From NCBI GenBank assembly GCA_021843755.1, contig JAKBWB010000041.1, forward strand, positions 1 through 64,000: a stretch of DNA of 64,000 nucleotides. The letters run 5' to 3'. Positions 8,336-52,379 of the stretch are shown here, in pieces. The position numbers and the translations under genes were made by a program. The first letter of the stretch is position 1, and every line of letters starts with the position of its first letter. The notes beneath the pieces are model-generated. The model did not search any database, had not been told where the DNA came from, and worked only from the letters and a program-made list of their open reading frames with translations. The stretch is from Pseudomonadota bacterium. Its GTDB lineage: Bacteria; Pseudomonadota; Gammaproteobacteria; Steroidobacterales; Steroidobacteraceae.

Positions 8336-9019
8336 GTGACACAGCCCACAACCGGTCCGACACAGGACGAGGTTCACGCCAAGAAGCGCCGCTGCGCGCA
8401 GGCCGCGCTGCACTACGTCGAGTCGGGCAGCGTGCTCGGCGTGGGAACCGGCTCGACAGTGGGGTATTTCATCGAGGCGCTCGCCGCGCGACCGGGGTTG
8501 ATCCAGGCGGCCGTGTCGAGCTCCGAAGCGACCAGCGCCCTGCTGCGTGCCGCCGGCATCGAGGTACTCGACCTCAACGAGGTCGGCACGGTACATCTGT
8601 ACATCGACGGAGCCGACCAGGCCACCCGTGCCCGGCACTTGATCAAGGGTGGGGGCGGCGCGCTCACGCGCGAGAAGATCGTGGCAGCCGCTGCCGAGCG
8701 CTTCGTGTGCATCATCGATGACGGCAAGCTCGCCGACGCTCTGGGAGGGTTTCCCTTGCCGATCGAGGTCATTCCGATGGCTCGCGCGCTGGTGACGCGC
8801 GCGATCGAGGCGCGGGGTGGCCATGCGGTGTGGCGTCGCGGCTTCGTGACCGATAACGGCAATCAGATCATCGACGTGCAGGGACTGCCGATCAGCGATC
8901 CCCCGGCGCTCGAGCGCGAACTCGATGCCATCACGGGCGTGGTCACCGTGGGATTGTTTGCGCTGCGGCCGGCGGACCTGCTGCTGGTCGGCACGGAAGC
9001 CGGCACGGAGACGATCTAG
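8336..9019 (+). CDS. rpiA: Ribose-5-phosphate isomerase A
   Basis: Interconverts ribose 5-phosphate and ribulose 5-phosphate. Visible motifs are [19 protein letters not shown] (catalytic Asp), [12 protein letters not shown] and [10 protein letters not shown]. The GTG at 8336 with GGGAAA before it gives 227 aa, near the usual 219. An ATG at 8267 in frame would add 23 residues that read through a hairpin (GTGCCCGC/GCGGGCAC) and look non-coding. Convergent with the yihY-like gene. Confidence 0.93.
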
Positions 9020-9029
9020 GCGTCGCGCC

Positions 9030-10379
9030 TCACGGACCGTTGCCGGAGGCCAACACCAGGGTCGCCCGGGGCGGCTCCTGAACCAGGTCGCGCAGCGTAA
9101 GATCACCGCAGCGGCCGCGACGCGCTTCATCGATCGCCCCGAGCAGGCGGTCCACCGGGGCAATCGGCAGCACGCGCGGATTGAAATCGCCCGTTTGCCG
9201 GTTGCGGGCGACCTCCAATATTTCCGCAACCGTGATGTGCCCCAGATCGCGCGCGGGCACCAGCTCGTCCTCGTCGGTCACCAGCAGGATCCCGGAGCGC
9301 TCCAGGGGCAAAACCGTTTCCGCCACGGCAACGGAGGGCAGACCGAGTTCGGCCGCGAGACTGTTCAGGCGCCAACGCCGCTCGCCCGTGAGATATGCGC
9401 GCCCCACCAGATACATCACCCGCAGCGAGAGCTGCTCGACCTCGGCGCCCGAGAGCTCCAGCGCCTGCAGCCCGAGGCGCAAGTAGGCCGGGTTTTGGAC
9501 GTAGAAGGACAGCAGCGCCCCGGCGAGCAGGATGAGCCATCCGGAGTACGTCCACAGCAGGGCCGCCACGATGAATGCGAATCCGGCGTAGACGATCGCC
9601 AGACGCGGCGAGTGCACCACGAAGGCCGTGAACATGTGCCCGACCGCCGCCCACAGAACCCCCGCGACGACCGCGCCGATCAGCGCCGGGCGCATTCGCA
9701 CCCGGGTGTTCGGCACCAGAATATAGAGGCCGGTGAAGAACACGATGACCATCACGTAGGGCGCGAGCTTGATCCCCGCCGCCGTCAGGATATCGAGCAA
9801 TGGCAGGTGCCTCAGATCGCGAAACGGCGCACTGTCGATCGCGCGGTGTGACAACCCGATGAACATCACCAGAAGAATCGGGCCGGCGACCAGCAGCGTC
9901 AGATACTCGGTGACGCGGCGGGCCAGACTGCGCGGCTTCTGCACGCGCCAGAGGAAATTGAAGCTGTCCTCGACCTTCTTGATCGTGATGATCAGCGTCA
10001 CGGCGAGCAGCGCCAGGCCGACCGAGCCGAGCAACCCGCCCCCAATCCGATTGGCGAACAGCACCACGCGCGATGTCAGCTTGGGAGCCTCCTGCGGGCC
10101 GAGCGCGCTGAAGAACTGGTAGACCACCGGCGCAAGGTCGCCACCGGCGCCGAGGAGCTTGAGGATCGCGAAGCTGAAGGCCGCCAAGGGAATCAGCGTG
10201 AGCAGGGTCGTATACACCAGGCTCATCGCCCGCAGGTTGATCTCCCCGCGAGTCAGCAGATCGCGCACTACGGCGTAGACGTAGCTCAGCCCATGGATGA
10301 ACGGACCGCGGTCCACCGGGCCGCGCCCGGTGCCGCCGAAGAACCAGTCATCGAGAAATGACCAGAATTTTGCCCACAT
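9030..10379 (-). CDS. yihY: YihY/BrkB-family inner-membrane protein with C-terminal winged-helix-like region
   Basis: A 449-aa integral membrane protein of the YihY/virulence factor BrkB family. About six membrane segments fill residues 45-290, including MSLVYTTLLTLIPLAAFSFAIL and LLVAGPILLVMFIGLS. The family was once called RNase BN, which was wrong; its function is unknown. After the last membrane segment comes a soluble tail of about 150 aa (from LSGAEVEQLSLRV) with wHTH-like helices such as RWRLNSLAAELGLPSVAVAETV. The long tail is found in a subset of the family. Its stop faces the rpiA stop. Confidence 0.85.
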   Translation of the reverse strand: MWAKFWSFLDDWFFGGTGRGPVDRGPFIHGLSYVYAVVRDLLTRGEINLRAMSLVYTTLLTLIPLAAFSFAILKLLGAGGDLAPVVYQFFSALGPQEAPKLTSRVVLFANRIGGGLLGSVGLALLAVTLIITIKKVEDSFNFLWRVQKPRSLARRVTEYLTLLVAGPILLVMFIGLSHRAIDSAPFRDLRHLPLLDILTAAGIKLAPYVMVIVFFTGLYILVPNTRVRMRPALIGAVVAGVLWAAVGHMFTAFVVHSPRLAIVYAGFAFIVAALLWTYSGWLILLAGALLSFYVQNPAYLRLGLQALELSGAEVEQLSLRVMYLVGRAYLTGERRWRLNSLAAELGLPSVAVAETVLPLERSGILLVTDEDELVPARDLGHITVAEILEVARNRQTGDFNPRVLPIAPVDRLLGAIDEARRGRCGDLTLRDLVQEPPRATLVLASGNGP

Positions 10380-43843: not shown

Positions 43844-45149
43844 CATGTACATCGAGCCCTTTCACCTGAAAGAGCTGCCGTTTCGGCTCAGCCCCGATCC
43901 GCAGTTCCTGTATCTGTCCAAACAGCACGCCCGCGCCAAGGCGTACATGGAATCGACCATCTGGTTCGCCGACGGCTTCGTGGTGATCACCGGCGAAATC
44001 GGGGCGGGCAAGACAACCCTGATCGAATCGTTCCTGCGGGAGATTCCCCAGGACGTGGTGGTCGCGCAGATCAATCAGACCCAGGTCTCGGCGGTCGACT
44101 TCCTGCAATCGCTTCTGGCGCAATTCGGCTTCTCGCCGTTCAAGATGAAGAAGAGCGAGCTGCTGGCCACACTCAACAACTTCCTGATCGAGCAGTACGC
44201 AGCCGGCCGGCGGGTACTGCTGGTGGTCGACGAGGCGCAAAACCTCTCGCAGCGCGTGCTGGAGGAGGTGCGGCTGCTCTCGGGCGTCGAGACCACCAAG
44301 GAAAAGGTGCTGCGCATCATCCTTGCCGGACAGCCCGAGCTCAACGCCAAGCTCGATGCTCCGGAGCTCGTGCAGCTCAATCAGCGCATCCGGCTGCGCT
44401 TTCATCTGTCCGCGCTCTCGTCGGAGGAAACCGCCGAGTACATCCGGCACCGCCTGGAAGTGGCCGGCGCCGGCGCCCGGGAGATCTTCGCGCCGGACAC
44501 CTTCGGGGAAATCTACCGTTATACGGGCGGCGTCCCGCGTCTGATCAATACCCTGTGCGACACCGCCTTGATGTCGGCGTTCACGGCCGACCGGGATCAG
44601 GTCAGCGCCGCGGACGTGGCCAACGCGGTAGCCGAGCTGCAATGGGTCGAGTATGCCGCGCGCCCCCACCCCCTGGGCGCGCCGGCCGCCGCCCGCATGC
44701 GTGGCGGACGTGAACCGGCGATGCCGCCGCTTGCGCGCCTGCTGGTCGCCGAGAATGGCCGCACGCTCCAGGAGCTGCCGCTGCTGCCCGGACGGATCAT
44801 CGTCGGGCGTACGCCCGACAACGACCTGCAGATCGAGAGCCGCTTCATCAGCCGCCATCACTGTCAGATCACAACCGCCGGCCAGGCCAGCATCATCGAG
44901 GATCTGAACAGCACCAACGGGCTGTACGTACGCTCGCAGCGCGTGCATCGGCATTATCTGCGCAACGGCGATGTGGTACTGATCGGCAAGCACGAGCTGT
45001 TGTACCTCGATGAGCGCGCACCGCGCGGGCACGGGAATATGACCGACACTCTGCCCGGCATTCCGGCGCTGGGTCACGACGAGGCGACCCTCGCCGGCGA
45101 GGACCTGCCGCTCGAGATTCCGACGATCTCGCCCCGCTCTCAGTCCTGA
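43844..45149 (+). CDS. ExeA/GspA-type AAA ATPase with C-terminal FHA domain
   Basis: 434 aa. The N-terminal AAA domain matches the ExeA/GspA and XrtA-associated ATPase group: FRLSPDPQFLYLSKQHA, Walker A GEIGAGKTTL, Walker B VLLVVDEAQNLS and sensor NQRIRLRFHLSALS. After an Ala/Pro-rich linker, the last 120 residues are an FHA domain: IIVGRTPDNDLQIES, FISRHHCQI and DLNSTNGLYV, which binds phosphothreonine peptides. The combination suggests a secretion or surface-polysaccharide ATPase controlled by phosphorylation; that is inference. The ATG follows purK by about a dozen bases; it is convergent with the plsB-linked small gene. Confidence 0.8.
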
Positions 45150-45406
45150 CCCGCGCCGGGCCCGGGACGCCCCTTGCGATCCGGTACGGCCGCATCGCGC
45201 CCGGCATAGCGTCTGCCGAGCTCGCGAAAATCACGCCGCCGCAACAAGATCACCGTGCCGGCCAGCACGGCCACGAAGCCCGCTATGCCGGTGAACGCGG
45301 CCAGCGCCCGGGGCTCGGTCACGAAGTAACTGACGGCGATCCCGCCAACGCCGAGTGCGATGTACAGCCACGGCAATCCCTCGTACAGCGGTCGGGAGAA
45401 ATGCAT
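45140..45406 (-). CDS. Small two-helix membrane protein
   Basis: 88 aa from the ATG at 45406 with GAGG upstream. Two membrane helices are visible: LPWLYIALGVGGIAVSYFV and ALAAFTGIAGFVAVLAGTVIL, followed by a basic, Gly/Pro-rich tail. It starts 7 nt after the plsB stop, so it is co-translated with plsB. I do not recognise the family. Confidence 0.65.
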   Translation of the reverse strand: MHFSRPLYEGLPWLYIALGVGGIAVSYFVTEPRALAAFTGIAGFVAVLAGTVILLRRRDFRELGRRYAGRDAAVPDRKGRPGPGAGQD

Positions 45407-45413
45407 GGGAGCC

Positions 45414-47840
45414 TCACACGTGGGTGACCTGAAGAATGCTGTGGCGGATCTGCTCGCTGAGGACGAATTGCGCATCGTCCGCGACCTGCATCAACACCGT
45501 GTCGAACTCGAGTGTTCCGGTACCGTTGCCGCGGATCACGCCGCGCCGGCGCAGCAGATCGATGAAATTGGCGAACAGGGATCGGTCGAAGAATTCCGGG
45601 GAGTTCAGGCCGTACAGCACGGCGATGCGCTGCGCGGCCAGCTGGCAGCGCTCCTCGAGCGTCGCCTGGCTGATGGCCCCCGAGCCCGCCTGCAGCAGCA
45701 GCGCGATCGCGAGATAGTACCGCTCGATGGTCTGCAGAGTCGCCTGTGCCAGTATGGACAGCTGCATCGCCTGCGCGCTCGAGGGCGGCGGCCGCCGCCA
45801 CACGCCGCGTGCAGCGTGCCGCTCGATCAAGCCGTGGCGGGCCAGCTCGGCAAGGACGCTCGCCACCACGTCCGGCAGCTCCACCTCGTTCCAGCGCAGG
45901 AACAGTTCCGCCGCGATATACGGATAGATGCGCCCCCCGAGGCGCTGCATGTTCTCGTGCGTCACTTCGGCGTTGCTCAAGAACACGCACGCCAGCAGGG
46001 ACGGCATCGCGAACAGATGCAGCACGTTGTTGCGGAAGTACGCGGCCAGCACTGCGCTCTCATCGCTCATGTGCAGCACATCGCCCGAGGGATGAGCCTG
46101 CCGCTGCAGCACCTTCATCGCCTCGCCGTAGGCGATGATCTCTTTACCCGACAGCTCGGTCACGGTGACCCGCTCGCTGTAGGGCACTCCGCACAGCAGC
46201 GCCCGATATAAATCGATCTGGCGGACCAGATCGGTCTCCGGCAGCGCTTGGCGTGGCATGGCCAGCAGGACCGTCGCCAGCAGGTTGACCGGCATCACCG
46301 CGGCCGCCGAGTTGATGTTGCGCATGATCCGGACGGCGAGCTCCTCCACAACCGCGCCGACACGCGCGGTGCGCGCATCCGCCTCGGTGGTCCGTTCCGG
46401 CCACGGCCCGGACCGCGCCAGGATCTGTTCGAGCGCGATCGGCTCGCCCAGATTGACGTGCACGCGCCCGAAGCGCTCGCGCAGCTTGCCGAGCGAGCGC
46501 ACCAGGCCGCGGACGCTCTCCTTTTCCTTGGGCTTGCCGGAGAGCTCCCCGACGTAGGTACTGCCCTCCATGATGCGCTCGTAGCCGAAATACACCGGCA
46601 CGAACATCACCGGGCGCAGCGGCTCGCGCAGGTAGCTGCGCACGGTCATCGACAGCATGCCGGTCTTGGGCTGCAGCAGCCGACCGGTGCGGCTGCGCCC
46701 TCCCTCGATGAAATATTCGAGCGAATGCCCGCGCGCCATGATCGCCGCCAGATACGTCATGAACACGACGGTGTACAGGGCGTTGCCGCGGAAGCGCCGG
46801 CGGATGAAGAAGGCTCCGCCCATGCGCAGGAACCGCCCGACCACCGGCAGATTCAGATTCACGCCGGCCGCGATGTGCGGCACCGCATAGCCGTTGACGT
46901 AGATGACGTACGACAGCAGCAGATAATCCATGTGGCTGCGGTGGCAGGGCACGTAGATGATCTCGTTGCCCTGCGCGACCCGCTCGAGCGTCTCGAGATG
47001 CCCCACGGTCACACCATCGTACAGCCGGTTCCAGAGCCAGGTGAGAACCCGCTCGAGGAACCGCACGAACGCGTGCGAGTAGTTCGCGGCGATCTCGTTG
47101 GCGTAGCCGGCGGCCTCGCGCAGCGCGGCGCGGCGCGTGATCTTTTTTTCGCGCATCAACTGGACGACGGCGGCACGCACGGCGCTGGTACGCAATACCC
47201 GGGTGACCACCGTGCGCCGGTGGGACAGATCCGGGCCGATACGAGCGGCGCGCCGCTGCACGAACTGAGCGCGCAGCGAACGGGTGATGCGCCGGCCTCG
47301 CAGCGCAAGCCCGCTCTCCTGGCCGATGAGGCTGCGCAGTGAGACCGGCTCGCCGAATTCGACCAGCGTGTCGCGGCCGTTGATCAGCACCTGCAGGAAT
47401 TTGCGCACACGGCTGGAGAGCGCCCAGTTCTCCACCAGCAGCAGGCGCAGCCAGGATTTCTCGCGCTGTGGCGCGCGGCCCCAATAGACCGATACCGGCA
47501 CCAGATCGAAGTCCGCATTGGGATCGGCCTCGAGCAGGCGCAACAGCTGCTCGATCTGTGGCGGCGGGCGGCGATCGACACGCTCGTTCCAGAAGCCGCG
47601 CACGCGGCTGAGATACAGATACGAGGGCCGCTCGCCCCGACGGCGCAAGCGCCGCTTGCGCGGCCTGGGAAGATGCACACGCTCGCAGACGTTCTGCAGC
47701 ACCGCCAGATCGACCGCGCTGCGCTGCTCGAGCACGTAACAGACCGGGCGCCGCCGCTCGCGCAGGCGAGCCTCCCCGTCCTCCGGGAGGATCTTGTAGC
47801 GCACCCAAAGTGCCAGTACTCGATGTAACAGCCAGCTCAT
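45414..47840 (-). CDS. plsB: Glycerol-3-phosphate 1-O-acyltransferase
   Basis: 808 aa, typical of PlsB. Acyltransferase block I is PCHRSHMDYLLLSYV (HX4D), followed by the blocks GAFFIRRRFRGNALY, FIEGGRSRTGRLLQPKTGML and MFVPVYFGYERIMEG. It adds the first acyl chain to glycerol 3-phosphate at the inner membrane. It is part of a leftward run with an upstream alpha/beta hydrolase and a downstream small membrane protein. Confidence 0.95.
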   Translation of the reverse strand: MSWLLHRVLALWVRYKILPEDGEARLRERRRPVCYVLEQRSAVDLAVLQNVCERVHLPRPRKRRLRRRGERPSYLYLSRVRGFWNERVDRRPPPQIEQLLRLLEADPNADFDLVPVSVYWGRAPQREKSWLRLLLVENWALSSRVRKFLQVLINGRDTLVEFGEPVSLRSLIGQESGLALRGRRITRSLRAQFVQRRAARIGPDLSHRRTVVTRVLRTSAVRAAVVQLMREKKITRRAALREAAGYANEIAANYSHAFVRFLERVLTWLWNRLYDGVTVGHLETLERVAQGNEIIYVPCHRSHMDYLLLSYVIYVNGYAVPHIAAGVNLNLPVVGRFLRMGGAFFIRRRFRGNALYTVVFMTYLAAIMARGHSLEYFIEGGRSRTGRLLQPKTGMLSMTVRSYLREPLRPVMFVPVYFGYERIMEGSTYVGELSGKPKEKESVRGLVRSLGKLRERFGRVHVNLGEPIALEQILARSGPWPERTTEADARTARVGAVVEELAVRIMRNINSAAAVMPVNLLATVLLAMPRQALPETDLVRQIDLYRALLCGVPYSERVTVTELSGKEIIAYGEAMKVLQRQAHPSGDVLHMSDESAVLAAYFRNNVLHLFAMPSLLACVFLSNAEVTHENMQRLGGRIYPYIAAELFLRWNEVELPDVVASVLAELARHGLIERHAARGVWRRPPPSSAQAMQLSILAQATLQTIERYYLAIALLLQAGSGAISQATLEERCQLAAQRIAVLYGLNSPEFFDRSLFANFIDLLRRRGVIRGNGTGTLEFDTVLMQVADDAQFVLSEQIRHSILQVTHV

Positions 47841-47897
47841 GCGATCGTCAGCGCCAAGACCCCGGCGCTGGTTGCCCCGATCCCTGCGCTGCGGGTC

Positions 47898-48476
47898 TTA
47901 TTCGCAGTCCGGCGCGGGCAGATCGAGCGCAATGAGGAAGTACTCAAATAGATTCTGAATGTAGCGGATCTGGTTGTGCAGATTGTGATCGCTGTCGAGC
48001 AGGTGCAGCGCGGCGCGCGAGGCCTGAGCGAATCGCACGCTGTGCTCGTAAGGCACGACCTGGTCGCGCCAGCCGTGCACCACCGCCGTGGGACAATCGA
48101 CGATGCCGGAGCGCAGCGGCGGCAGATCCGGGAAATACAGCGCCGGAGCCATCAGAAAGACGCCACGTGCATGCAGGACCGAGGCGCTGGCTACGGTCAC
48201 GTAACCGCCGAGGCTCGAGCCGGCCAGCACCAGTTCCCCGCTCAATTCCTTGCAGTAATCGGCAAGCCGTGCGATGCGCTCCCGGGGCGCGTCGAGCCCG
48301 CGGTAATCGACCGAATGGACCTCGTATCCTTCGCCGCGAACCACTTCGGCGAGCGCGGTGATCTTGCGCCCCCACGGACCGCTCGCCTGGCCATGCGAGA
48401 ACACGACGTGCCGCTGCGGCGTACTCGCGACCGGCGCGCCGCTGTGCTCCTCGGCCGAAGGCACTGCATCACTCAT
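47898..48476 (-). CDS. Alpha/beta hydrolase (YqiA-like)
   Basis: 192 aa. HVVFSHGQASGPWGRK is the oxyanion strand-turn; VLAGSSLGGYVTVAS holds the nucleophile (Ser in GSSLGG); the Asp (VHGWRDQVVPYEHS) and the His (DSDHNLHNQ) complete the triad. Short, lidless hydrolases of this type include the esterase YqiA. Substrate unknown. It lies between the sheath gene and plsB with gaps of about 50 bp on each side, all on the minus strand. Confidence 0.78.
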   Translation of the reverse strand: MSDAVPSAEEHSGAPVASTPQRHVVFSHGQASGPWGRKITALAEVVRGEGYEVHSVDYRGLDAPRERIARLADYCKELSGELVLAGSSLGGYVTVASASVLHARGVFLMAPALYFPDLPPLRSGIVDCPTAVVHGWRDQVVPYEHSVRFAQASRAALHLLDSDHNLHNQIRYIQNLFEYFLIALDLPAPDCE

Positions 48477-48528
48477 CGCACAATGATGCCGGCAAAACGC
48501 GGTCTAAGCCATAGTCCTCGGCAGGCGC

Positions 48529-50115
48529 CTAGTGGCTCATCACCGCCTCGGCGGGCAGCCCGCTCGAGGGCCGAGTCGCCAGGCGGTTGACCGAGACTGG
48601 TCGGGCACGGCTGACCGCCGGCTGGTGGCTGACCAGCCAGGTATCGAACTCCCCGGCACGCCGCGCGGCGATACCGAACAGAAGGTTGACACGCCCCAAG
48701 GCAACCGAATCCGGCTGGTTGACGCGCTCGTCGCATACGACGAAGTAGCGCTCCTGCGCCGAGGCGCCGGCAAACGCCCCCTCGGCCGCGAATCGCGCCA
48801 GATAGGCATCCACGAGCGAGCGGCCGCGCGCCCAGGTGATGGGCGCGTTCTGCTCGAACAGCATCCAGCGCGTCCCGCGCTCGACACTGGCCGCGATGCG
48901 CAGCGCCAGACGCCGGGCGGAGAGGAATCTCCAGTCGGGCGAGCCGCTGCCACCCGTGGCCAGCGTACGCGCGCTCACCGGCGGGATATCGGGCGAACGG
49001 ACCGCCACCAGAGTGTTGATACCCGTCTGGGCGAGCCGCACACGCTGCGCCGGCGACACTTCGACCGCAGGCAGCAGCCCGGCGCGCAGGACCGCCTCGT
49101 CATCGCAGCCCCCGAGCGGCCGGTACGCCTCGGCGCGCGAGAGCAAGCCCGCGGCTGCACCGCAGCAGGCGAAGGTCTCGTGCCGGCCGCGCAGCCGGTC
49201 GAACGCGCGCAATCTGGGGTAGTACAGGACGGCGTGGTCACTGCGGAATGGCCAGTCGCGCATCGCCTCGATCGCCTCCTGCGGGCATGTCCAGTCGCTC
49301 GGCGGATCGACGATCAGCAACGCATGACACTCGCGGCACAGACGCGCCGCGACCAGCAGGGTACCGAGACCGACGTCATGCTCGCGGGAAAGCGGCGGAA
49401 TACAGAGGAAATCGAAAACCTCGGCGCGCAGCGCGAACAATCCCGTGCCATCGGCTGCCGATCCGATCACGTCGTAGTCCGTGAGGGGCCCGCCGTCATC
49501 GCCATCGGAATTCGACGCAACGTAGCCGACCGAGAATCCGCTTGCCCCCGGCCCCGTGCGGTCCGGACGCCGTTGCGGCAGCGGAGCAACCGCTCGCGCC
49601 AGCTGCGAGCGCTGCAGCGCATCGACGATGAACCGCTCGGAGTCCGGCTGCAGTGAGACCCGGCGGAATATCTCCTGGTCCTCCACCCGCTCGGAGCCGG
49701 CCGCACGCACCCGCTGCAGCACAAGGTTGAACAGCCCTTCGCTCTCGGCAATCCCATCGTAATCGACGGACGCCCGCAGGTACTCCCGCGAGCCCGGCTG
49801 CAGGCCCAGCAGCCGCAACACCTCGGCGCCCGCCGGCAGAGTCACGGTCGGCGCATGCCCGCCGTTGGCGACGCGCACTACCAGAGCCTGACCGCCGCCG
49901 CTGGCGAAGAACTGCTCGACGGCGTACGAGAGGCTCGAGGGCTGCCACAGCCCGCCGAAGATCTGCTGAAACTCGGTGAAGCTCGCCACCGGCACCGCGC
50001 GATTCAGCGGCCCCTTGAGGGTACGGCCGACGAAGGCGGTCACCGGCGGGCGATACGCGGCCGCCGGCTCAGTCTCGTCGTACTCGAGGGAGAAGCTCGG
50101 ACCGCCCTCAGCCAC
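48529..50115 (-). CDS. Contractile phage-tail sheath family protein (orphan)
   Basis: 528 aa, GTG start. Tail-sheath features: the N-terminal VTAFVGRTLKGPLNRAVPV and FTEFQQIFGG, then YAVEQFFASGGGQALVVRVA, and the C-terminal domain with RRLALRIAASVERGTRWMLF, EQNAPITWARGRSLVDAYLA and a final ERYFVVCDERVNQ. These are the strands that interlock in sheaths of phages, R-type pyocins and related injection systems. No tube, baseplate, spike or other phage gene is in the window; its neighbours are an L,D-transpeptidase and a hydrolase, and GC content matches the core. It may be domesticated, or part of a system with genes elsewhere. Confidence 0.75.
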   Translation of the reverse strand: MAEGGPSFSLEYDETEPAAAYRPPVTAFVGRTLKGPLNRAVPVASFTEFQQIFGGLWQPSSLSYAVEQFFASGGGQALVVRVANGGHAPTVTLPAGAEVLRLLGLQPGSREYLRASVDYDGIAESEGLFNLVLQRVRAAGSERVEDQEIFRRVSLQPDSERFIVDALQRSQLARAVAPLPQRRPDRTGPGASGFSVGYVASNSDGDDGGPLTDYDVIGSAADGTGLFALRAEVFDFLCIPPLSREHDVGLGTLLVAARLCRECHALLIVDPPSDWTCPQEAIEAMRDWPFRSDHAVLYYPRLRAFDRLRGRHETFACCGAAAGLLSRAEAYRPLGGCDDEAVLRAGLLPAVEVSPAQRVRLAQTGINTLVAVRSPDIPPVSARTLATGGSGSPDWRFLSARRLALRIAASVERGTRWMLFEQNAPITWARGRSLVDAYLARFAAEGAFAGASAQERYFVVCDERVNQPDSVALGRVNLLFGIAARRAGEFDTWLVSHQPAVSRARPVSVNRLATRPSSGLPAEAVMSH

Positions 50116-50185
50116 CGATGTGTCGCCCCAACGTTGTTCTTTTCGATACCCTGCGACTGTAACACAAGAGCCGCCGTGCCGAACC

Positions 50186-51415
50186 TCACGGCATCCGGTG
50201 CGACCGGAGCGTCTGGCCGCCGCGCCGATGCGCGGACACCTTGCCGGTGAGCGCAGCTCCGGGAGGATCGGCGGCCGCGGGGTCCTTCGGCATCGCCCTC
50301 GAACGGATCTGGTTCAGAACCTTGTCGAATTGGGCGGTCGTGAGCGGCAGATGCGTCTGGCCATTCCACGCCGACCCCAAGGGCAGACGGTTTTGCACCA
50401 GGGTCGCCACCATTCCCCCGTGCACCGGGCCCCGGCCCGAAACCGGCAGCGGCACCACCCTGGGGTCGTCCACCAGGCGCCTCACCCGCGTCCAATCGAT
50501 CTTCTCGTCCGAGCGCGTGAGGTCGGTGACCCAGCGGTGGGGCAGCATGCGCGCCAGCAGCGCGGGGTCCGTCTTCCACGGCCGCTTGTCATCCTGCAAC
50601 GCACCATAGGCCTGCATGTACAACCGCCCGTTCTGCCAGGCGAACAGGAACGGTTGATTGACGACACGCACCGGCGTGCCGTTCGGCACCATCTTGAAGA
50701 GCTGTCGGATGTCCTCCGGGTACAGGTGAATGCAGCCGTGGCTGACGCGCCGTCCGACTCCGGCCGGTCTGTCGGTACCGTGGATGAGGATCTCCGGATA
50801 ACTCAGGTGCAGTGCGTAGTTGCCGAGCGGGTTGTCGGGACCGGCCGCGACCACCCGCGGCAGCGGCGTGCCGCGCCGGGCATGCGAGGCGAGGATCGAG
50901 CGCGGAACGATCCATTCGGGATGCGCCTGGTGCCAGGTGACGCGCGTCACCATCGTGGGCGTGGGGTGGCCGAGCCTGCCGATCCCGACCGGATGCGTGA
51001 TGACGACTTGCGGCTGTCCCGGCGCGTGCGGCGGGTAGTAGAACAGCCGCATCGCGGCGATATCGACCACGATACCCACGTGCGGCGCATCCGGGAGGAT
51101 GAACTCCGTCGGCACGATCACGCGCGTGCCCACCGGAGCGAGCCACGGGTTGACCTTGGGATTGGCGCGCTTGATCGAGTCGTACCCGACATCGAACAGA
51201 CGGGCGATGTCGGACAGGACCTGGTGCGGTTTGATCCGCACGATCTGCACGCGGCCGATCATCTGCTGTCCCGGCGCGAGCACGAACCGCTCGGTCTGGA
51301 CCGGCACCGGCAAAGCGGCGGGGGCGGCGGCCGCCGGCGGGCACGGGCCAGAGCCCGCAAACCCGGCGACGGACAGACACACCGCGACGATGACTCTGGT
51401 GTTGGTGCGATTCAT
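50186..51415 (-). CDS. L,D-transpeptidase (YkuD) with LysM-like N-terminus
   Basis: 409 aa. A signal peptide (TRVIVAVCLSVAGFAGSGPC) leads to a LysM-like segment (QVLSDIARLFDVGYDSIKRAN). The YkuD catalytic domain follows, with HGTDRPAGVGRRVSHGCIHL in two parts: the His of ILIHGTD and the nucleophile Cys of SHGCIHLY. These enzymes form 3-3 crosslinks in peptidoglycan or attach Braun-type lipoprotein. The C-terminal 130 aa are an extra, Pro-rich region. It is the first gene of a possible leftward run leading to plsB. Confidence 0.9.
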   Translation of the reverse strand: MNRTNTRVIVAVCLSVAGFAGSGPCPPAAAAPAALPVPVQTERFVLAPGQQMIGRVQIVRIKPHQVLSDIARLFDVGYDSIKRANPKVNPWLAPVGTRVIVPTEFILPDAPHVGIVVDIAAMRLFYYPPHAPGQPQVVITHPVGIGRLGHPTPTMVTRVTWHQAHPEWIVPRSILASHARRGTPLPRVVAAGPDNPLGNYALHLSYPEILIHGTDRPAGVGRRVSHGCIHLYPEDIRQLFKMVPNGTPVRVVNQPFLFAWQNGRLYMQAYGALQDDKRPWKTDPALLARMLPHRWVTDLTRSDEKIDWTRVRRLVDDPRVVPLPVSGRGPVHGGMVATLVQNRLPLGSAWNGQTHLPLTTAQFDKVLNQIRSRAMPKDPAAADPPGAALTGKVSAHRRGGQTLRSHRMP

Positions 51416-51462
51416 GAATCACATTATGACAGGTCGCCGGGACACGTGGTCGGGGCAGACAC

Positions 51463-51493
51463 AAAAATGCCCCGATCCTGCACGGACCGGGGC
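51463..51493 (-). terminator. Intrinsic terminator (minus strand)
   Basis: On the minus strand GCCCCGGTCC-GTGCA-GGATCGGGGC is followed by ATTTTTG. It lies about 45 nt after the stop of the small minus-strand ORF at 51540 and before the transpeptidase start. Confidence 0.85.
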
Positions 51494-51539
51494 GATGAGG
51501 CGGACGTTCCTCGAGGGGGCTGTCCGCCCGCAGGGGGAC

Positions 51540-51743
51540 TCAGTGAAGGCGCGCCCAATGAAGAATCCGTATGTCCTCCGAGTCCAGATTGAAATTGACC
51601 GCCAGCAACAAGCGCAATTCGCCGAGCTCGCGCCGGTCACGCAGCGGCTCACGCAGCTCGACCACCCCGCTCCATTCATGCGCGGCCACTGGCTCGGCTC
51701 CCGCGCCGCCGGTCAAGAAATGCGTGTAGTACTTGGCCGCCAC
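51540..51743 (-). CDS. Small hypothetical protein, 67 aa
   Basis: GTG start. The protein begins AAKYYTHFLTGGAGAEPVAA after the initiator and ends SEDIRILHWARLH, with a coherent mix of aromatic and charged residues. A TACACT hexamer (51750-51755) ends 6 nt before the GTG, and a strong terminator follows the stop, so it looks like a complete small transcription unit. The overlapping plus-strand frames have no such signals. I do not recognise a family. Confidence 0.5.
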   Translation of the reverse strand: MAAKYYTHFLTGGAGAEPVAAHEWSGVVELREPLRDRRELGELRLLLAVNFNLDSEDIRILHWARLH

Positions 51744-51863
51744 GTGATCAGTGTAGGTCGATGGCGACAGTCCCGACCGTGAAGCGGTACGCAGAATGTC
51801 CGCCCTCTGGCACTATGTGACCTGGGTGCGCGCTCAGGCGGCCCAGTGATCCGTCCGCATCGC

Positions 51864-52379
51864 ATGAGCCGATACCGCCCGCCGCAGCCGCCGTCGTCCC
51901 CCTACATCACCCCCGAGGGCGCCGCCCGGCTGCGCGAGGAGCTGGAGAGGCTCTGGCGCATCGAGCGCCCGCAGGTGACCCGGGCGGTGGCCGAGGCCGC
52001 CGCTCAGGGTGACCGCTCCGAAAACGCGGAATACACGTATGGCAAGCGCCGCTTGCGCGAGATCGACCGCCGGGTGCGCCACCTGCGCAAGCGCCTGGAG
52101 AGTCTCGTGGTGGTCAACCAGCCGCCTGCCGACCCGGAGCGGGTCTACTTCGGCGCCTGGGTCACGCTCGAGATGCTCGGGGATGGCCGCGACGCGCGCT
52201 ACCGTATCGTCGGACCCGACGAAATCGACCGTGAGCCCGGCTACATCAGCATGGATTCCCCGCTCGGTCGCGCGTTGCTCGGAAGGCGGCTCGAGGAGCA
52301 GGTGAGCGTGCAGCTGCCGGGCGGCCTGCGTCGCTTCGTCATCGTCGAGATCGAATACGCCGCCGACCCGTCTCGTTGA
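51864..52379 (+). CDS. greB: Transcription elongation factor GreB
   Basis: 171 aa from the ATG at 51864; an in-frame GTG at 51846 would add six residues. The N-terminal coiled coil has [20 protein letters not shown] and the acidic-tip region [20 protein letters not shown]. The C-terminal FKBP-like domain has [18 protein letters not shown] and [10 protein letters not shown]. Gre factors trigger RNA cleavage in backtracked polymerase. The [14 protein letters not shown] tip is the GreB rather than GreA version. Convergent with hss. Confidence 0.93.

Follow-up and report, generated by a model that had tools for sequence, protein, structure and literature searches.

An orphan contractile-sheath gene, probably domesticated, in an envelope-gene neighbourhood of a gammaproteobacterial order

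Contractile sheaths have usually been treated as meaningful only together with their tube. We analysed a sheath gene in a 64,000-nucleotide stretch of gammaproteobacterial DNA (the window) and considered it moderately probable that it descended from an extracellular contractile injection system (eCIS) sheath that was domesticated once, lost its role in injection and came to act through its outer domain in a neighbourhood of envelope genes. A sheath without a tube, kept across an order under selection about as strong as that on plsB, would be a clear exaptation of a part of an injection machine. The gene and its surroundings were as follows:

48529..50115, minus strand: orphan contractile-sheath protein, 528 aa, GTG start, assigned by homology and predicted fold
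50186..51415, minus strand: L,D-transpeptidase (LDT, YkuD), upstream neighbour of the sheath and recurrently linked to it; best NCBIfam match LdtE, under its cut-off
47898..48476, minus strand: alpha/beta hydrolase, downstream of the sheath
45414..47840, minus strand: plsB, glycerol-3-phosphate acyltransferase, by profile match
50172..50193, minus strand: weak terminator-like hairpin (consensus match only), overlapping the LDT stop and lying before the sheath start

The sheath gene was a single reading frame of 528 codons with the limits that the earlier note had given. By sequence, the protein was assigned to the sheath family through PHROG (phrog_23 'tail sheath', E 1.9e-30) and the PDB (eCIS-type sheaths 8bky, E 3.2e-35, and 8bl4, E 5.6e-35), and it missed the Pfam and NCBIfam cut-offs. 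Namely, PF17482 scored 19.3 bits, below its cut-off of 26.9, PF04984 had no match in the whole genome, this gene included, and no NCBIfam family matched the protein at E 1. An AlphaFold2 model from an input alignment of 65 rows had a pLDDT of 84.5 and a pTM of 0.81, and an input of 20 close relatives instead gave a pLDDT of 48. The 65-row model had the sheath fold, with its best structural match to the Streptomyces CIS sheath 9gts_2A (Z 33.4, rmsd 2.6, 327 residues) and its top Foldseek match to the contracted sheath of H. borinquense (9ezm, 450 residues aligned). No signal peptide was seen in the protein by eye. Homology and the predicted fold agreed with the earlier description of a well-preserved sheath protein, and on this combination of sequence and model the window gene encodes a genuine contractile-sheath protein.

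The assembly that contained the window (3.32 Mb, 72 contigs, 96.8% complete) had a single sheath match. It had no match to the gp19 tube (PF06841), and hence none adjoining the sheath, and none to the gp25/TssE family (PF04965), the Pvc16_N cap (PF14065) or Baseplate_J (PF04865). The phage tube (PF04985) was matched in none of the 60 genomes of the relatives set, our genome included. The identified neighbours of the sheath were housekeeping genes, with no AAA ATPase or eCIS_core among them, and no nearby prophage or eCIS containing the sheath was found. Thus, what the earlier note had seen locally, a lack of tube and baseplate genes near the sheath, held for the tested tail families anywhere in the assembly.

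That note had also allowed for a dispersed contractile system. In such a case, the genes for tube and baseplate would lie at other sites in the genome and would be too diverged for profiles to detect. Diverged proteins can escape profiles, as the window sheath itself escaped PF04984, and PF06841 and PF14065 had no match in 14 control genomes. However, these two profiles, for which the eCIS copies in G005, G042 and G044 were the positive controls, did find eCIS tubes and caps in relatives, and the gp25, Baseplate_J and phage-tube profiles, for which control genomes were positive, matched nothing in our genome. Since these partner families were absent and conservation of the arm and the C-terminal assembly domain was mostly lost (see below), the dispersed system was left unsupported, and we considered it very improbable.

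Other genomes of the relatives set did contain contractile machines. Four of the 60 had a gp19 tube: those in G005, G042 and G044 adjoined sheaths of a separate system, and the one in G058 was a fragment among eCIS remains. Matches to gp25 were found in 10 of the 60 genomes and to Baseplate_J in 5, and ten proteins were scanned from four such loci (G006, G036, G012 and G014). The tail genes of G006 and G036 belonged to T6SS loci with VipB, accompanied in G006 by VipA and Hcp, and those of G012 formed a phage tail module; in G014, Baseplate_J was the sole gene recognised among the scanned proteins. The T6SS of G006 and G036 and the phage tail module of G012 are machines separate from the orphan sheath.

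The placement of the sheath among an LDT, a hydrolase and plsB was confirmed for all three neighbours, which shared its strand. According to the coordinates, the gaps in the series LDT, sheath, hydrolase and plsB were 70, 52 and 57 bases. The shared composition reported earlier was also recovered, with similar GC and GC3 values for the sheath gene (0.701 and 0.843), the LDT gene (0.685 and 0.868), the hydrolase gene (0.653 and 0.782) and plsB (0.667 and 0.871). The hairpin upstream of the sheath may partially separate it from the LDT gene. As a separate observation, positions 45100-52000 of the window held 11 terminator-like hairpins versus 2.6 expected from shuffles, and 7 of the 11 were inside plsB.

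This neighbourhood was conserved in relatives. The arrangement LDT-sheath-hydrolase-plsB was present in 16 of the 19 loci from the genus (L021-L039), the exceptions being L036, which began within the sheath gene, and L038 and L039, which had no LDT match. More widely, 37 of 59 loci had an LDT gene called in the vicinity of the sheath and 22 had none; this count left out eight of 67 loci, either because the gene caller missed the sheath (L063, L068 and L150) or because the sheaths were not orphans (L049 and L056-L059). In all 37 loci the LDT gene was upstream and on the same strand, at a distance of one to seven genes (directly adjacent in 12), and these loci came from seven families. Additionally, LemA, TPM proteins, lipoyl synthase and S49 and M48 peptidases recurred around the sheath, and an oxoprolinase was near it in 27 loci, mostly on the opposite strand. 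A hidden tail operon in the diverged members of the genus, where up to 5 kb separated sheath and hydrolase, was rejected, the inserts being an oxoprolinase and an amino-acid permease.

The setting of the sheath had an envelope flavour, and its linkage to LDT may be plain retained synteny since the oxoprolinase recurred near it as well. L,D-transpeptidases work outside the cytoplasm, and therefore direct contact between LDT and the sheath protein is unlikely. Two further sets of genes were noticed around the sheath. In six loci of family f15 (L165, L167, L169, L174, L179 and L180), two uncharacterised proteins of about 210 and 220 aa were encoded on the same strand, directly after the orphan sheath or one gene later; their L174 representatives had no Pfam or NCBIfam match, and they are possible candidates for sheath partners. 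Around the sheath, 23 loci encoded a conserved protein about 65 aa long (e.g., L054:14606-14803, minus strand), and its L054 representative also had no Pfam or NCBIfam match.

Far from being lost in all relatives, the sheath had a match in 52 of the 60 relatives-set genomes and in 143 of 196 genomes of the order, ours included, nearly always as a single copy; 53 genomes of the order had no match. These order matches covered 116 of 146 good genomes and 48 of 60 sampled genera. The score was at least 136 bits in 141 of the 143 genomes, with only weak matches in G044 and G051, and bit score alone failed to split orphans from eCIS sheaths, which reached 257 bits. A gp19 tube was detected in 7 of the 196 genomes. 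Among the 141 with a strong match there were four such genomes (G042, G058, G504 and G529), each with the tube on a contig other than that of the orphan, and in G042, G504 and G529 the tube adjoined another sheath. The reading frames were open and free of stops in nearly all of the listed order matches.

Against eight close relatives, the sheath gene had a dN/dS of 0.14-0.22 and was therefore under purifying selection. In the same eight pairs, the values were 0.15-0.21 for plsB and 0.12-0.41 for LDT.

Remains of eCIS were observed in and near the order. Locus L212 (G058:C56) contained an apparently decayed eCIS with fragments of the ATPase, sheath, tube and core genes, and L183/L209 (G711:C22) another, in which an ATPase fragment adjoined the sheath. 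At L049 (G056:C3, positions 8658-10205), a genome with the orphan had a second, lone sheath of the eCIS type for which no tube was detected, and this may be a recent relic or stem from another domestication. Such remains (L212, L209 and perhaps L049) would be the precedent for reading the orphan itself as a slowly decaying eCIS relic with no present function. However, its low dN/dS, its stop-free frames, its retention across the order and its new, clade-specific conserved residues made this reading barely credible.

Sheaths from outside the order were mostly accompanied by a tube. Within the class, 40 further genomes matched, and a tube adjoined the sheath in 23 of the 25 loci fetched and in all 9 loci scoring at least 150 bits. 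In a phylum sample, 27 of 398 genomes matched, and a tube was present in 16 of 26 loci examined with 1.5 kb flanks; the tube profile was built from five eCIS tubes. The ten tube-less phylum loci were L183, seven low-scoring sheaths, and L206 and L207, which were second pieces of genes already counted.

In a first tree of 77 rows, made with a careful search, 46 orphan rows formed a clade with support of 100/98. The label of orphan meant here that no tube was in the fetched stretch, and four of the rows labelled in this way (L095, two of L098, and L049) were placed among eCIS-type sheaths. A second, 91-row tree came from a short search, with near-duplicates from the genus and rows no longer than 380 aa excluded; its 73 orphan rows formed one clade (SH-aLRT 100) with no other row inside. 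The sister group of this clade consisted of nine eCIS-type rows, all with a tube except L049. Both L049 and L183 were treated separately in this tree and in the conservation counts below, and both fell outside the orphan clade. For the part of the 141 order matches that the trees cover, the simplest account would be a single domestication and, after it, mostly vertical inheritance.

A prophage or mobile origin was considered and rejected, as 50,697 phage records held no relative at E 1e-5. Viral contigs searched with the window protein as query gave no relative confirmed by tblastn; with sheath alignments (eCIS and others) as queries, distant sheaths did appear in them, and these were used for structure alignment. 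Sixty plasmid records matched, all below 60% identity (best 35.5% among the 10 of 60 matches listed), and in the two plasmid loci that were fetched, both rhizobial, a tube adjoined the sheath. The phage records also bear on the possibility that the orphan is a decoy or immunity protein, co-assembling with the sheaths of contractile phages or rival eCIS and poisoning them. In principle, a protein that resembles a sheath but has no partners could have a dominant-negative effect. Its wide, near-core distribution, its recurrent housekeeping neighbourhood, the relaxation of its assembly surfaces and the lack of relatives in phages argued against this, and we regarded it as quite improbable.

The domestication that we favour was also consistent with where conservation was located in the protein. 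Three regions were central to this comparison:

50044..50115, minus strand: N-terminal arm, aa 1-24, with the eCIS motif PGVYxEE lost or weakened
49426..49860, minus strand: middle insert, aa 86-230, the most conserved part of the orphans relative to eCIS sheaths
48616..48945, minus strand: C-terminal assembly domain, aa 391-500, fold kept in the model, eCIS-invariant columns mostly gone

Passages of PMC9230969 describe a sheath core, made of N- and C-terminal parts, that appears to serve tube contact and assembly, with the domains outside this core located farther from the tube. In AlgoCIS, according to excerpts of PMC8894135, sheath subunits interweave through a conserved handshake and touch the tube through an attachment helix in domain I. 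Since the former passages place non-core domains farther out, aa 86-230 would correspond to an outer insert that points away from the tube in real sheaths.

Conservation was compared between 98 orphan rows and 11 eCIS rows that had a tube; a column counted as invariant when at least 10 of 11 rows agreed, and the orphan values were averages over 40 subsets of matched divergence. In a second test, one orphan was taken from each of 11 families, giving sets that were more divergent than the matched subsets. The invariant columns in eCIS sheaths, matched orphans and one-per-family orphans, respectively, numbered 16, 1.0 and 1.5 for aa 1-24; 19, 30.6 and 14.2 for aa 25-85; 13, 59.1 and 33.4 for aa 86-230; 26, 39.2 and 14.0 for aa 231-330; 30, 14.8 and 4.3 for aa 331-390; and 73, 28.2 and 6.5 for aa 391-500. 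These counts are to be read with region borders that were chosen after the alignment was seen, an eCIS set that was small (11 rows), and an eCIS middle region that was harder to align, so that its invariant count may be too low. In both tests the middle insert was up and the N-terminal arm and the C-terminal third were down, and the direction differed for aa 25-85 and 231-330. The near-invariant orphan residues of the middle insert included R114, D120, R135, Q147, D213, Y214, D215 and S219. As far as alignments can tell, selection has moved from the arms and the C-terminal assembly domain to the middle insert, and this pattern is the reverse of that expected from working sheaths.

The strongest rival, although in our view unlikely, was a polymer without a tube, in which arm exchange would let the protein self-assemble into cytoplasmic rings or tubules that act as a scaffold. 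The full sheath fold was predicted, residues G7 and I18 of the N-terminal arm were conserved in orphans and eCIS sheaths alike, and a G-I-x-V-x-E-like strand was retained by eye in many families. Yet conservation of the arm handshake was strongly relaxed: a weak strand pattern was left, with G-I-x-V persisting in many orphans, and residues 1-18 had low confidence in the monomer model. In the matched subsets, the N-terminal arm had 1 invariant column where eCIS sheaths had 16, and the C-terminal domain had 28 where they had 73. AlgoCIS subunits, in the same excerpts of PMC8894135, interweave by the conserved handshake and contact the tube through the attachment helix.

Returning to the favoured domestication, an eCIS sheath would have been domesticated once, early in this gammaproteobacterial order. 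The tube, baseplate, cap and ATPase would have been lost, and the sheath gene alone retained and inherited mainly vertically. The resulting protein would not inject; it would probably be soluble and cytoplasmic, as a monomer or a small oligomer. Its middle insert may have become a specific binding surface (R114, D120, R135, Q147, D213, Y214 and D215) for a putative partner in the cytosol or at the inner membrane. Because LDT and envelope-protease genes neighbour the sheath, its role would probably be in envelope or cell-wall maintenance. Only tentatively do we extend this to the order as a whole, where an injection sleeve may have turned into a non-injecting protein whose outer decoration domain is the working surface and is tied to peptidoglycan or envelope maintenance. 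The earlier suggestion of a domesticated sheath with a new function was supported, since the orphans formed a single clade, were retained across the order under purifying selection, had no partners that could be found and showed relocated constraint; the biochemical function itself is one that we infer.

Domesticated parts of phage tails or eCIS are known in general as a kind. Our literature searches, which covered passages of PMC8894135, PMC8213781, PMC9230969, PMC13314943 and PMC8894136, turned up no account of a sheath that was orphaned or domesticated, nor of a lone sheath spread across an order. The new element here is the apparent shift of constraint toward the middle insert. This finding supplies residues for mutation and a partner to seek, and it cautions that a sheath gene alone is insufficient for calling an eCIS.

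Among known systems, a T6SS was not indicated, as our genome had no TssE/gp25 match (PF04965), and neither was a prophage or tailocin, given the lack of phage tubes (PF04985) in all 60 genomes and the housekeeping neighbours. The H. borinquense protein 9ezm was solved within a contracted sheath, whereas no partners were found for the orphan. The gammaproteobacterial eCIS sheaths L108-L115 were sister rows to the orphans, with 31-39% identity to the window protein. Unlike the orphan, all eight had a tube beside the sheath, and L108, the only one annotated, also had T4_baseplate, Pvc16_N, AAA and eCIS_core genes. In general, eCIS sheaths (Afp2/Pvc2/Alg2/Cis2; 8bky, 8bl4 and 9gts from Streptomyces) were like the orphan in sequence and predicted fold. 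The orphan differed from these systems in having no tube, baseplate or cap match in its locus or genome, and from their sheaths in having arms and a C-terminal domain that were much less conserved and a middle insert that was newly conserved.
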